This document shows positions 14,303 to 19,656 of a DNA stretch of 64,000 bases, piece after piece. This DNA is from Puffinus mauretanicus (lineage: Eukaryota; Chordata; Aves; Procellariiformes; Procellariidae), in assembly GCA_023333565.1 (NCBI GenBank), contig JAJKFH010001548.1:1550001-1614000 (forward strand), written 5' to 3'. The notes beneath the pieces were generated by a model. That model did not search any database, was not told where the DNA came from, and worked only from the letters and a program-made list of their open reading frames with translations. Within the stretch, counting starts at the first letter, position 1. Each line of letters begins with the position of its first letter. The position numbers were made by a program, and so were the translations under genes.

Positions 14303-14413
14303 GCTCCCGACCCCTCTCCGGCCCCGATGAGCTGCCAAGAGAGCGAGTACCTGGATGAGCATGGGAAATGCATCCCCTGCAGAAACTGCATGCCCGGGCA
14401 GGAGCTTTCCAAG
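14303..14413 (+). CDS. EDA2R: EDA2R exon with start codon (residues 1-29)
   Basis: Acceptor AG at 14301-14302 follows a pyrimidine-rich tract. The ATG is at 14327 and the donor GTAAAT at 14414. It encodes residues 1-29 in phase 0, beginning MSCQESEYLDEHGKC. Cysteines at 3, 15, 18 and 21 start the first TNFR repeat, and the segment ends GQELSK as in human EDA2R. No hydrophobic leader precedes the cysteines, which is normal for this receptor. Bases 14303-14326 are 5'UTR. Confidence 0.92.
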
Positions 14414-17400
14414 GTAAATCGGCTGCTCTGGAAGGACTGGGAATCATCTGGCACCGAGGCTTTTACGATGCTAGGGGAATCCTCTGCCAGCCTTCCTTCA
14501 GAAGGATAATCTTAGGTCCCGGCATGTTGGGAAGAGCTGGGACTCGGTGGGAAGGGACGGTGACCAGTCTCCCTCACCTTGGATAGGAGGGCAAGACGGT
14601 GGAAGCAACAGGTGGGAAGGGATTTCGCGTTGCTGCTCAGGGTGCCCTCTCTCCTTTTTTGTCAATGGAAATCTAAATTTCCTCCTGGTCTGTAGCGCCG
14701 GGTGAAGCCGTGCTGCCTGGCCAGGCTGCACGCTGGATGGCTGCAAGCAGGACACGGCTGCAGGGGGGATCCGGCCCAGCCTCGGCAGCGGGACTGGTGC
14801 TTCCCCCCAGGCGCCCCGCAGGATCCCCCCGCCAGCGGTGCCTCCTGGGGCGCGTCGCTGTCGGAGCTTTCCTCCTCCCTAAACATGGCCAGCGGGCCCC
14901 GGCTGGGCAGCAAACGGCTTCCCCTGTCTCCATCGGAGCTGCTCTGGTGGCGTCTGCTCTCGGCTGGGTTCTGAGCACCCTTCGCATGAGCGGTAACCCC
15001 TGTGCCCCCGAAGAAGGGACACTGTTCCCCTTGGTACCACTTTGGGACCTGAAGTGGCTCCTCGCCGCAGCCGTGCACCCGACCTCGTGTCTTGCAGGAC
15101 TGTGGCGACGGCGGCGGGGGGGATGCGCAGTGCGTTGCCTGCCCTCCCAGGAAGTTTAAGGACAGCTGGGGGCATCACGGCTGCAAGCCCTGCCTGTCCT
15201 GCACCCTCATCAACCGCGTCCAGAAGTCCAACTGCACGGCGACGACCAACGCGGTCTGCGGGGAATGCCTGCCCGGGTGAGTGGGGCCGGATCCTGGCTC
15301 GAGCGGCGCCGCGGTGCTCGCACCAGGGAGCGTGCAGGGAGGGGATGGACGGGGGACTTTATTGGGGCCACCCAGATCATGGGACATAAGAGGAGCCCTG
15401 GTGACCCAGGACTGCCTCTTTGAGGACACTGCTAATGACATGCAAATCAGACCCATCCGATGGCCCCCTTGTAGCTCCAAAGAAGGGAATGTGAAGGCTC
15501 CAGTGAACGAGCAGTGGAAGAAAATTCCTTCCAGGCCTCAGTTGTTCCTGGGGACACCAGGGTGGCTAAGCCCTGGAAGATGAGTGGCTGTAGACCACTA
15601 CAATGGGTGGTCCCCAAGAGGAGGTCAGACTGTGCCTCGGGTGGTGGGTTTAAGGGGTCGCTGAAATGAAGACTGCTGCGTACAGCCAGCTTGCGAAATG
15701 CCCGAGGGCTGCAGACCACGTGCTGGCGAGCAGTGGGAACGAGTCAGGGCTCTGGTGTGTGAGCTCTTCCCAGGCGCAGTTGTAGGCTGGGGTGTTGCTG
15801 TGGCTTCGCGGAGCTATTGATCACTATCGCCCACTTTAGCAGGCGCGGGGCGGGGGTGGAGGCAGCTCCAGTGATGTCGCTCCTTGGCCAAAGTGGCGAC
15901 AGACATGAAAAAGTAGCTGCGGTATGGCTTCGGCCAGCGACGGAGAGACCTGCTGCCTTGGGGCGTCCCAGCCCGCCGGGGCAGGAGCGCGGGGGGGTCG
16001 GCTCTCCCCGCCCTGCCGCGGGACGGACAAACCGCCCGTCCCTCCGGAGCCAGGCCGGCGGGGACTCGCCGCGGGGCCATGCGCTGCTGAGACCCTCTGC
16101 TCTGTTGGCAGGTTTTACCGCAAGGCGCGGATCAGCGGGCAGCTGGACTGGGAGTGCATCCCTTGCACCAAGCAGACGCCCTCCTCCGAGCCTCAGTGTA
16201 CGTGCCGTCCCTCGCCGGCGGGGGGGAGGCCCTCTGGGGTAGAGGGGGCGGTGAGGACGTGGTGGAGCAGATTCATGGTACATGCTGAGCCATTGTGACC
16301 GTGTCAAAGGCGTGCTCTCGGATGTGCACCATCCTTTCACCGATCCTGCCTGCTGGCCAGCCTACTCCACCGGCCACAGCACAAGCCCCTGTCCCACAGA
16401 CCTGCTGGAGGAGGCACGGTCATTACACGTGAAGAGGGACGGGCAGGGAGGGGGTGGCCCAAGCCTTGGGGATGGGTTCCAACGTTTTGTGGCTGGTGTG
16501 TTTGCAGGTCGGTCCAGAACAAACCTGGTGAAGGTAGCCATCCCGACCGTACCGCCACAGGACACGGCCCTTCTTGCACTGACCAGCAGTGCCCTGGTCA
16601 TCATCGTACTGGTGCTTCTGGCGCTCTCCATCATCTACTGTAAGCGGTTTTGGAAGAGCCAGTGCCAGCGAGGTGAGTCAATGCCTGCTTCTCTTCCTTC
16701 TCCCTTTGCTGTTCGCACGTGCCTCCTCGCTGTGTAGAGCATTGCCCGAGCGTTGCTGCTCTTGCAGCATACAGTGACCCAAACGTTCCTCTGCTCATGC
16801 AGAATAAACGCCTCGTCCTGCCTTTTACATCTGCAGGACCTCTCTTGTGCTCTGCCTGCTCAAAGAGACGGAGGAGCCTCCCTCCTCCCCAGTACCGTAA
16901 TTGGCAGGAGGAGGATGCGTTTCACAGGCAGAACCGGGGTTTCTCGGGGGCAGGCTGAGGTGGAGCGGCTCTTTGCCGGGCAGGACCGTGGGGTGGTGAG
17001 GGAAGAGGGCAGCAGGTTTGGGGGCTGGAGCTGGGGCATGTTGGTGTCCAGCAGCGTGCCAGGGAGCTGCTGGCTCCCGGCTCCTCGCCGGCAGACATAC
17101 CCACAGCTGAGGACGTGCTGGGGAAGCAAGCCAAGCCTTCACTCAGACTGGTTCTCCTCTATCCTGCAAGTCTTCCTGAGGACTCAGAACTTCTCGGGCC
17201 AGCGAGCAATGTTCCCGACCGCGGCGGCGCCCGGCAGATTCCTGTGTGAGGAGCAGATGTCTGGTCCCTGCTGCCTGGGTGTGAAGAACCTGAGCCCCTG
17301 CTACAGGCAGGCAGAAGGTACCTGCTCCTCTGGGTGGAGGGAGGGTGGTGCTGGGCTCCAGCTCGCACGGCCCTAGGACCTACTGAGATGCCCTTAGGCA

Positions 17401-19656
17401 GGAAGGATGGGGCTGGACGGTGTCCGAGTCCCACCAACAGGAAATCTGGGACCTCTCTTAACGAACGCTTGCAGGCCCTGTACCAGAAGTGCGTGCATGC
17501 AGCCCCTGCGGCTCCTCATCCCCCCAGCCCGCTCCCGCTCTCCCTGCGACTGGGGGAGGGATCGACCCCACTCAAAACTTCGCTGAAAGGCACAAAAGTG
17601 GCTTTGCTCAGGGGTGGTGCAGGGCACAGGATCGGGCCCCTGGCAGGGTCTCCCAGCTCCGCCTGCAGGCCCTGGGCCAGTGGGTTTAGCGGCGGGGCTG
17701 GCAGACCCCCGGCAGGGGCCAGGGCAGATCCCGGGCTTCGCTGAGCCGTGCCGGTTTCTGGTTTCAGGCCCCGTGGAAGCGGTGCAGTTCATCTCAGATG
17801 GGGAAGCCGTGGGTCTCCAGCTCCCCTCTCTCCAGCCGGAGATGGACTTGCCACCGGCCGTCGTGGTCGGCACTGCCTCCAAAGCCCAGCTGGGCAGGAG
17901 CCTCCTGGAAAGCCAGCCCCTCATCCGGGCCTCGGGCCGTGGCGACTGCCTGGCCGGGGTCCTGCCGCCCTCCGACCCCAGGCAGGGCCAGCCGGGCACG
18001 GCGGAGGCCCTGGCCCCCCTCTCCTCCTGCGCCTCCGAGATGCAGCACAAGTGGCCGCACGCCCCGGTGGAGTGCACCGAGCTGGACCTCCAGAAGTTCT
18101 CCACCCAGGCAGAGTTTGTGGGCGGCGAGCGGCCGGAGGACGCGGCGAGCCGGGCGGTGCAGAGGATCCCGGCAGAGAGCAGCGGCGCAGGGAGGGAGGG
18201 AGCCCGGCGCCTGCCCTCCACCTTCCCGAATCCCACTGCCGAAAGCGGGGAGCAGCCGGTAAGTTCCTCCGGCCTCGTTGCTCCTCCGAACCACTGCCGG
18301 ACACCCGGGGCTCGGGCACAGGGTGCTGGGCTCGCCGGTGGGTTAGGGATGTAGGGAAAGGTTCGTTAATATCTGGGACTAACCGGTAACTACCAAAAAT
18401 GATTTGTCAGATGTTCAGTGATGTGTCACTCAACAGGCCATTGGCCACGGAGACGTGCCCTGCTGGGGCGGTTTCAAACACCCGGAAGACCAGAGTCAAT
18501 GTATTGAATGTTTAAGCGTATCTCTTACTGATGTGCTCCCGAGTGGTTCTTGTCCTCTTGCTCTCCAGAAAGCTGGCCTGGCAGCGGGGGAGCTGCCTCC
18601 TCCTCCCTCTCTGGTGGGCTCGTCATGAACCTGGTGACTCGCATCACTGAGGCTCAGAAAGTGTCCGGCAGAGAGTCGCCTTTAACAGCGTAGCTGTAGG
18701 TGACCGTTTATAGAAGCAGTTTGCTGGGAGGCCCTGGAGCATCCCGAGGAGGTCGTTGGCTCTGTGGGATGGTGGAGCTGGAAGGAGAAGCGCCATTCCC
18801 CTGAGCCTCTGTGACGGCCCTGGGAGCAGTGACAGGCGTTGCTGTTCTCACCAGACCGCCACCAACCGTGGGTCTTTGTCTTGCCAGGTGGATGATGCCC
18901 AGAGCCTCGTGACTCAGATCAGCAGCACGGCGAAGGGTAAGTGTCTTCTCAGCTTCATCTTTGTTCTCCAAGTATTGGGGTAGCGGAGAGAGGCAGATTC
19001 TTGGAAGGGAGCTCCTCCGGAAGCCCGCCACGGCTACGTGGAGGTGCCAGTCATCACAGGGACTTACCTGACTTTTGTGGCCTTTGGTGCTAGTTCACAG
19101 GGTGGGGTTTTTGTGATGCTGCCTTGAATGGTCTGCGGGTGGGTGGTGGATGGATGCCCAGTTGTCACCAGTTACCAGCCTCCCCGGGACTGAGCCAGCT
19201 CCATGTTGCTGAGCTCTGAAAGTGATGTTGGAGGAGATACCCGCCCTGGCAGCGTGGCGTTTCACCTGCTCGGCGGGGACAGGGGCTGGAGTCTGGCTGC
19301 TCTGTTTATCCTTATCCTAGCCGGATAGGTTGGTTTCTAACCCCGCTTTGCTGCCCCCAGGTCTCCCAGTAGCAGAGCTGCCCCATTCCTTGGTGCAGTC
19401 ACTTGCCTTCTTGTTGGACCCTTCCTTGAACGGTGTGAAGAACTTCAGCCACGTGGCGCTGGAGCTGGGGGTCGCGCCCCAGTTGCTGGGACGGCTATCT
19501 GGATTTGAGCAGCTCGTCGCTCACTTCACCTACTCGGGAGACGCGGTCACCATCCCGCTCCTGGCCCAGGCTCTGCAGCGGCTCCAGCGGTTCGACGCCT
19601 TGCTCCTGCTCTGCGACCACTTCGCGCTCAGCCAGGCTCAGGGCCGCCAGCGCTAG
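14327..19656 (+). CDS. EDA2R: EDA2R (TNFRSF27/XEDAR) with a C-terminal death domain; whole spliced CDS
   Basis: Ectodysplasin-A2 receptor, a TNF-receptor family plasma-membrane protein that signals to NF-kB and JNK through TRAFs. Seven coding exons (14327-14413, 15098-15276, 16112-16197, 16508-16672, 17768-18258, 18888-18936, 19361-19656) join with GT/AG junctions and matching phases to give 450 residues. The N terminus has no signal peptide, as in mammalian EDA2R (type III topology). Cysteine-rich TNFR repeats cover residues 3-118, with an NCT glycosylation site at 74. The membrane segment is about residues 138-161. The cytoplasmic motif PVECTELDLQKF (272-283) is nearly identical to human EDA2R and fixes the identity. 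Human EDA2R ends soon after this motif at about 297 aa. Here two further exons add a p75NTR-type death domain (about 359-441). It converges on the GPR83-like gene. No frameshift or internal stop was found. Confidence 0.93.
15098..15276 (+). CDS. EDA2R: EDA2R exon, ligand-binding cysteine-rich repeats (residues 30-88)
   Basis: The acceptor TTGCAG ends at 15097 and the donor GTGAGT starts at 15277; the exon leaves phase 2. Nine cysteines (31, 41, 44, 58, 61, 64, 75, 83, 86) show the spacing of TNFR repeats 1-2. WGHH at 53-56 and INRVQK at 67-72 match the human receptor. N74 is in an NCT sequon. A glycine-rich stretch (GDGGGGD, 32-38) replaces the human YGEGGD region. Confidence 0.94.
16112..16197 (+). 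CDS. EDA2R: EDA2R exon, third cysteine-rich segment (residues 89-118)
   Basis: The acceptor TTGGCAG ends at 16111 and the donor GTACGT starts at 16198. The exon encodes a conserved FYRKARI start and an ECIPCTKQTP motif (103-112), very close to human EDA2R. Cysteines 104 and 107 lie here and C118 is split across the next junction. Phases (2 in, 1 out) match both neighbours. Confidence 0.93.
16508..16672 (+). CDS. EDA2R: EDA2R exon, stalk and transmembrane segment (residues 118-173)
   Basis: The acceptor TTTGCAG ends at 16507 and the donor GTGAGT starts at 16673. The exon encodes the membrane-proximal stalk with the conserved TVPPQD (131-136), then a hydrophobic helix at about 138-161 rich in A, L, I and V, then a basic stop-transfer YCKRFW. 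Both ends are phase 1. Confidence 0.92.
17768..18258 (+). CDS. EDA2R: EDA2R exon, cytoplasmic linker with ECTELDLQKF motif (residues 173-336)
   Basis: The acceptor GTTTCAG ends at 17767 and the donor GTAAGT starts at 18259. It encodes 163 whole codons of low-complexity cytoplasmic tail with one strongly conserved island, PVECTELDLQKF (272-283). In mammals this region lies close to the C terminus and is associated with TRAF recruitment. The rest is poorly conserved and biased by high GC. It ends in phase 0; reading through the donor continues to a stop at 18352-18354. Confidence 0.9.
18259..18354 (+). other. EDA2R: Read-through tail of EDA2R cytoplasmic exon (intron retention form)
   Basis: If the donor at 18259 is not used, the frame continues for 31 more codons and stops at 18352-18354. 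That product would keep the ligand-binding, membrane and TELDLQKF parts but lack the death domain, giving a protein of about 367 residues organised like mammalian EDA2R. It is a formal possibility only, since the donor is a strong GTAAGT. Confidence 0.3.
18888..18936 (+). CDS. EDA2R: EDA2R 49-bp exon (residues 337-353)
   Basis: A very short exon with acceptor TTGCCAG ending at 18887 and an ideal donor GTAAGT at 18937. It encodes VDDAQSLVTQISSTAK plus one base, taking phase 0 to phase 1. It is the only link that joins the cytoplasmic-tail exon in frame to the death-domain exon. I know of no counterpart in the human protein. Confidence 0.82.
19361..19656 (+). CDS. EDA2R: EDA2R last coding exon, death domain (residues 353-450)
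   Basis: The acceptor CTGCCCCCAG ends at 19360 and the TAG stop is 19654-19656. The 98 residues have the six-amphipathic-helix pattern of a death domain. They run from LPHSLVQSLAFLLD, through a central FSHVALELGV, to a final LLAQALQRLQRFDALLLL. The pattern is closest to the p75NTR type (LxxxLGxxxE-like core, then ALRRIQRADLV-like helix), judged from memory. Death domains recruit adaptors by homotypic contact, so the receptor could signal differently from the mammalian one. Phase 1 entry matches the 49-bp exon. Confidence 0.87.

Follow-up and report, generated by a model that had tools for sequence, protein, structure and literature searches.

A predicted C-terminal death domain in EDA2R of birds and other reptiles

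The EDA2R gene of the window

The window analyzed here, 64,000 nucleotides of the Puffinus mauretanicus genome (contig JAJKFH010001548.1, positions 1,550,001 to 1,614,000), carries on its forward strand a gene which, judged by its sequence, is the bird orthologue of EDA2R (TNFRSF27/XEDAR). Our analysis indicates that EDA2R of birds and other reptiles very probably ends in a C-terminal death domain. The features of an EDA2R orthologue are all present, namely a TNFR cysteine-rich region (TNFR_c6 match of 45.6 bits in Pfam), one transmembrane helix and the CTELDLQKF block. A homology search with a protein model of 450 amino acids (aa) returned 236 proteins at E <= 0.001, and among the best 120, which were used here, the top matches are named TNFRSF27 and the penguin and crane proteins are nearest to that of the window. 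The extracellular region, the transmembrane segment and the CTELDLQKF block can be aligned with the human sequence. The human protein of 297 aa, however, appears to stop in the cytoplasmic linker before the death domain and to lack any counterpart of exons 7 and 8, whereas the bird protein continues through both.

The gene model (Table 1) shows gt/ag borders and in-frame joins throughout, except for the start of the first exon and the stop of the last. The first-pass annotation had joined two further exons to exon 6 as a C-terminal extension, and this part of its model was borne out, as the lengths, gt/ag borders and phases (1/0/1) of the three exons are right and exactly 114 residues are added in frame. 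The 450-aa protein that it proposed is nevertheless incomplete, since the in-frame cassette exon had been left out; with this exon the protein reaches 499 aa. In tblastn, the cassette exon is hit by proteins of penguin, crane, ostrich, turtle and alligator. It lies directly after the transmembrane exon and is represented in those bird, turtle, alligator and lizard models that were compared, while it is absent from the Anas (duck) model P0023 and from six short bird models; human EDA2R presumably has no counterpart either.

Table 1. Predicted EDA2R features in the window, with the basis of each assignment
Feature	Position	Strand	Basis
Exon 1 of the model (MSCQESEY...), start of extracellular cysteine-rich region	14327..14413	+	Splice/phase check; tblastn with penguin, crane and turtle proteins
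Exon 2, cysteine-rich domain	15098..15276	+	Splice/phase check; tblastn; Pfam TNFR_c6
Exon 3, end of cysteine-rich region	16112..16197	+	Splice/phase check; tblastn
Exon 4, transmembrane segment	16508..16672	+	Splice/phase check; tblastn
Cassette exon, 147 bp, phase 1-1, 49 aa (VFLRTQNFSG...)	17171..17317	+	tblastn; in-frame model
Exon 6, 491 bp, start phase 1, cytoplasmic linker	17768..18258	+	Splice/phase check; tblastn
PVECTE, putative TRAF6-type site in the linker	18064..18081	+	Sequence compared with TRAF6-binding consensus; conservation across 19 rows
Exon 7, 49 bp, start phase 0	18888..18936	+	Splice/phase check; tblastn
Last exon, 296 bp including stop, start phase 1: predicted death domain and short tail	19361..19656	+	Splice/phase check; fold model; conservation in sauropsids

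The true 5' end of the gene is uncertain, because upstream of 14327 the frame stays open up to an acceptor-like site before 14303. According to PMC6001812, XEDAR belongs to the type III proteins. A hydrophobic N-terminus resembling a signal peptide precedes the first cysteine in models P0038, P0057 and P0125 and in other turtle, alligator and lizard models, the start of the sea turtle model being MKRGPMLVFTLFLVTEVRG...; tblastn found no convincing counterpart of this turtle-type N-terminus around 14303-14327 or elsewhere in the window. A start of the type MxCxE is found in most domain-bearing bird models, in Elgaria and in tuatara, and presumably in human EDA2R as well.

Fold, profile and conservation of the C-terminal exon

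The putative death domain spans about 19361-19620, within the last exon. The predicted structure of the C-terminus adopts the six-helix antiparallel death fold and superposes on the p75NTR structure 1ngr with 1.8 A over 80 residues, at 29% identity. In addition, none of 300 shuffled controls reached the profile score of the EDA2R domain, either for EDAR or for p75NTR. In the lizard model a predicted helix at residues 372-390, the counterpart of exon 7, leads into the death domain, and the linker homologous to exon 6 is predicted to be disordered in the lizard protein.

A comparison with alligator, turtles and lizards, as the first-pass annotation had proposed, recovered the death-domain exon in all of them (59-72% domain identity), and 53 of 125 distinct proteins match the domain of the window at E <= 1e-3. 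Over 87 residues, identity to the window is 98% in penguin, 94% in crane, 87% in manakin, 91% in duck, 94% in turkey and 93% in ostrich, compared to 82%, 78%, 64%, 51%, 50% and 56%, respectively, for the preceding linker. The corresponding domain values are 72% in alligator, 71% in sea turtle, 66% in another turtle, 59% in two lizards and 58% in tuatara (73 of the 87 positions), with linker identities of 51% in alligator, 40% in both turtles, 36% (14 positions only) and 40% in the lizards and 43% in tuatara. In each of the 12 species compared, the domain is thus more conserved than the linker, which argues for stronger constraint on the domain than on its flank. Furthermore, 32 domain columns are invariant across 12 sauropsid rows. 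With such sequence conservation, the open reading frame of the last exon is not fortuitous.

A number of observations weigh against a death domain as a regular part of the receptor. Pfam and PDB searches with the domain, both single-sequence and profile-based, all remained below significance: Death_EDAR gave E 0.15 and 12.5 bits, with the cut-off at 27, the best PDB match, p75NTR, gave E 0.088, and no match to PF00531 was listed in the Pfam searches. The first-pass annotation had suggested an HMM search against the death-domain family, and a significant score was not reached there. Since no curated death-domain model is matched significantly, membership rests on the fold and profile comparisons. 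It should also be mentioned that 71 of the 125 proteins are models of 268-316 aa without the domain, that a stork protein of 520 aa (P0033) is long yet equally devoid of it, and that in the tuatara model (P0117) 14 alignment columns are missing within the second half of the domain, as far as the position corresponding to ALQRL, a gap that may reflect decay or a gene-prediction fault.

The short and domain-less models could suggest that the last two exons constitute a separate downstream gene, or that they were joined to EDA2R by gene prediction only. We consider this highly improbable, given that the bird, turtle, alligator and lizard models exceeding 330 aa, with the exception of P0033, all have the domain in one and the same C-terminal position, and that Drew et al. 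reportedly described the domain in the chicken orthologue in 2007. Moreover, the short models, 64 of which share the 12 commonest endings (type ...QAEFVGGE), stop about where similarity to the human protein appears to fade; for this reason they are best read as human-guided gene predictions and not as evidence for a short bird receptor. They are found among P0039-P0120, and many public bird entries named 'TNR27 factor, partial' break off ahead of the death-domain exons, so that users of the databases do not get to see the domain. The stork model retains the end of exon 7 (ISSTAKG), followed by other sequence in place of the death domain, and is perhaps a natural domain-less splice form.

Two additional searches with only the turtle domain as query yielded 5 proteins of 97 candidates and 39 of 336. 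These were sauropsid, together with P0122 and P0123, which both read like bird EDA2R. Among the listed homologues (the best 120 of 236, the 5 and the 39), none is labelled as mammal, amphibian or fish, an absence that is uninformative about other vertebrates because the domain-bearing lizard Elgaria was itself missed by the domain-only search that yielded 39 proteins. Matches to Type_III_SycN in 7 of 12 members (best E 0.0043) were attributed to chance, as they lie below the cut-off of that family, cover 37 residues and concern bacterial secretion. NCBIfam, a library of bacteria and archaea, gave no match for three proteins.

Nearest relatives and ancestry of the domain

A search of this genome with Pfam Death (E <= 0.01) gathered 27 exons encoding a complete or partial death domain, and the EDA2R exon was not among them. 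The best profile match of the 27 is an exon (score 28.1 over 72 columns) that we read as EDAR owing to its near identity to a sequence printed in PMC13367198. It shares the LDP...KN-W/F block with the EDA2R domain, although identity over the 72 columns is only about 24%. The next ranks were taken by L010 (22.8), L007 (21.4) and L005 (20.4), which by our own reading, with no tool assignment, are MyD88, an UNC5 and p75NTR (NGFR). L011 (contig C843), with an unusual letter make-up, is a second p75NTR-like death domain in this genome besides L005. However, when single reference sequences were compared with the EDA2R profile, p75NTR of PDB 4f42 obtained the highest score and surpassed the literature EDAR sequence (34.0 vs 27.6).

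A tree was calculated from 21 domains, comprising 13 hand-chosen ones of the 27, six EDA2R rows and two reference sequences; the 14 domains of the same genome outside the tree were mostly shorter matches, some near full length. It places EDA2R with EDAR, with weak support (82/73) and a long-branch warning, the branches being 1.6 (EDA2R) and 1.96 (EDAR) changes per column. A clade of EDA2R and p75NTR was disfavoured but not rejected (p-AU 0.073). The first-pass annotation had called the domain p75NTR-type. A C-terminal death domain is sustained by the fold model and by the comparison with shuffled sequences, but the p75NTR label is not established: the same-genome p75NTR scores below EDAR and is not the sister of EDA2R in the tree, while the 4f42 score speaks in its favour. 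As far as the evidence goes, the EDA2R domain would belong to the EDAR/p75NTR group, leaning to EDAR.

With the domain found in birds, alligator, turtles and lizards, the sequences place its origin in the sauropsid ancestor at the latest. Mammals have most likely lost the last exons of EDA2R, which is the simplest reading given that the paralogue EDAR has a death domain, and which fits human EDA2R, whose sequence appears to stop in the linker before the domain. Alternatively, sauropsids may have acquired the domain themselves, for instance through exon shuffling with EDAR as the donor. Such a gain would accord with the fact that all named animals among the listed matches are sauropsid and that EDAR comes closest among death domains in both profile and tree; we regard it as quite unlikely, however, because EDAR and EDA2R are paralogues, so that no shuffling is required for both to have a domain inherited from their ancestor, and because branches as long as those in the tree suit an old split.

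Proposed signalling and previous knowledge

The consensus for TRAF6 binding is PxExx(acidic/aromatic). The PVECTE motif of the linker fits it and extends into the first residues of the CTELDLQKF block; at least 90% of the 19 rows of alignment A3 retain PVECTELDLQ. In the mechanism that we propose, EDA-A2 would cluster bird EDA2R, the PVECTE site would recruit TRAF6, as it does in mammals, and the death domains brought together in the cluster would engage a death-domain adaptor, resulting in NF-kB activation and possibly in death signalling. Whether the adaptor is in fact engaged we judge to be evenly balanced; if so, an EDARADD-like protein is the most likely candidate in view of the kinship of the domain to EDAR. 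From its sequence, the receptor would then signal through two arms, one being the TRAF arm of the mammalian receptor and the other a death-domain arm.

An alternative is that the last exon represents the remnant of a death fold that engages no adaptor and only folds and caps the tail, signalling being through TRAFs only as in mammals. The divergence from curated death-domain models, the retained TRAF6-type site and the missing part in tuatara are in line with a remnant, but the conservation of the domain above that of the linker in every species compared, together with its invariant columns, points to constraint, and we thus find this alternative unlikely. In a broader and more tentative scenario, which we find somewhat doubtful as a whole, EDAR and EDA2R derive from one death-domain receptor, sauropsid EDA2R kept the domain, the TRAF6 site and the adaptor (probably EDARADD), the EDA-A1 and EDA-A2 pathways converge on this adaptor in feathers and scales, and mammals uncoupled EDA2R from it by loss of the last exons.

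Drew et al. (2007, Dev Biol 305:232-245) reportedly state that chicken cXedar, unlike its mammalian orthologue, has an intracellular death domain, and the work of Pantalacci et al. from 2008 may treat the mammalian loss. It seems, therefore, that the bird death domain is already known but under-noticed. Gene, animal class and kind of C-terminal domain agree with what is reported for the chicken, to which our analysis adds the spread across sauropsids, the predicted fold, the proximity of the domain to that of EDAR and the finding that many public models are short. The open reviews are in conflict, one presenting XEDAR without qualification as lacking a death domain (PMC9408960) and another ascribing the domain to both the human and the mouse 297-aa forms (PMC4731439). 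The 11 passages on 'death domain' or 'EDA2R' in a paper on the emergence of the pathway ascribe no death domain to EDA2R (PMC13367198), and no statement on a bird EDA2R death domain was found in the accessible portions of the literature searched, where coverage of subscription papers is poor. The presence of the domain may well differ by animal class, and EDA-A2 results from mice or people should thus not be transferred unchecked to birds and reptiles. Automatic annotation can overlook the domain, since it is missed by the Pfam models used and since many of the bird models in public databases are short and do not include it.
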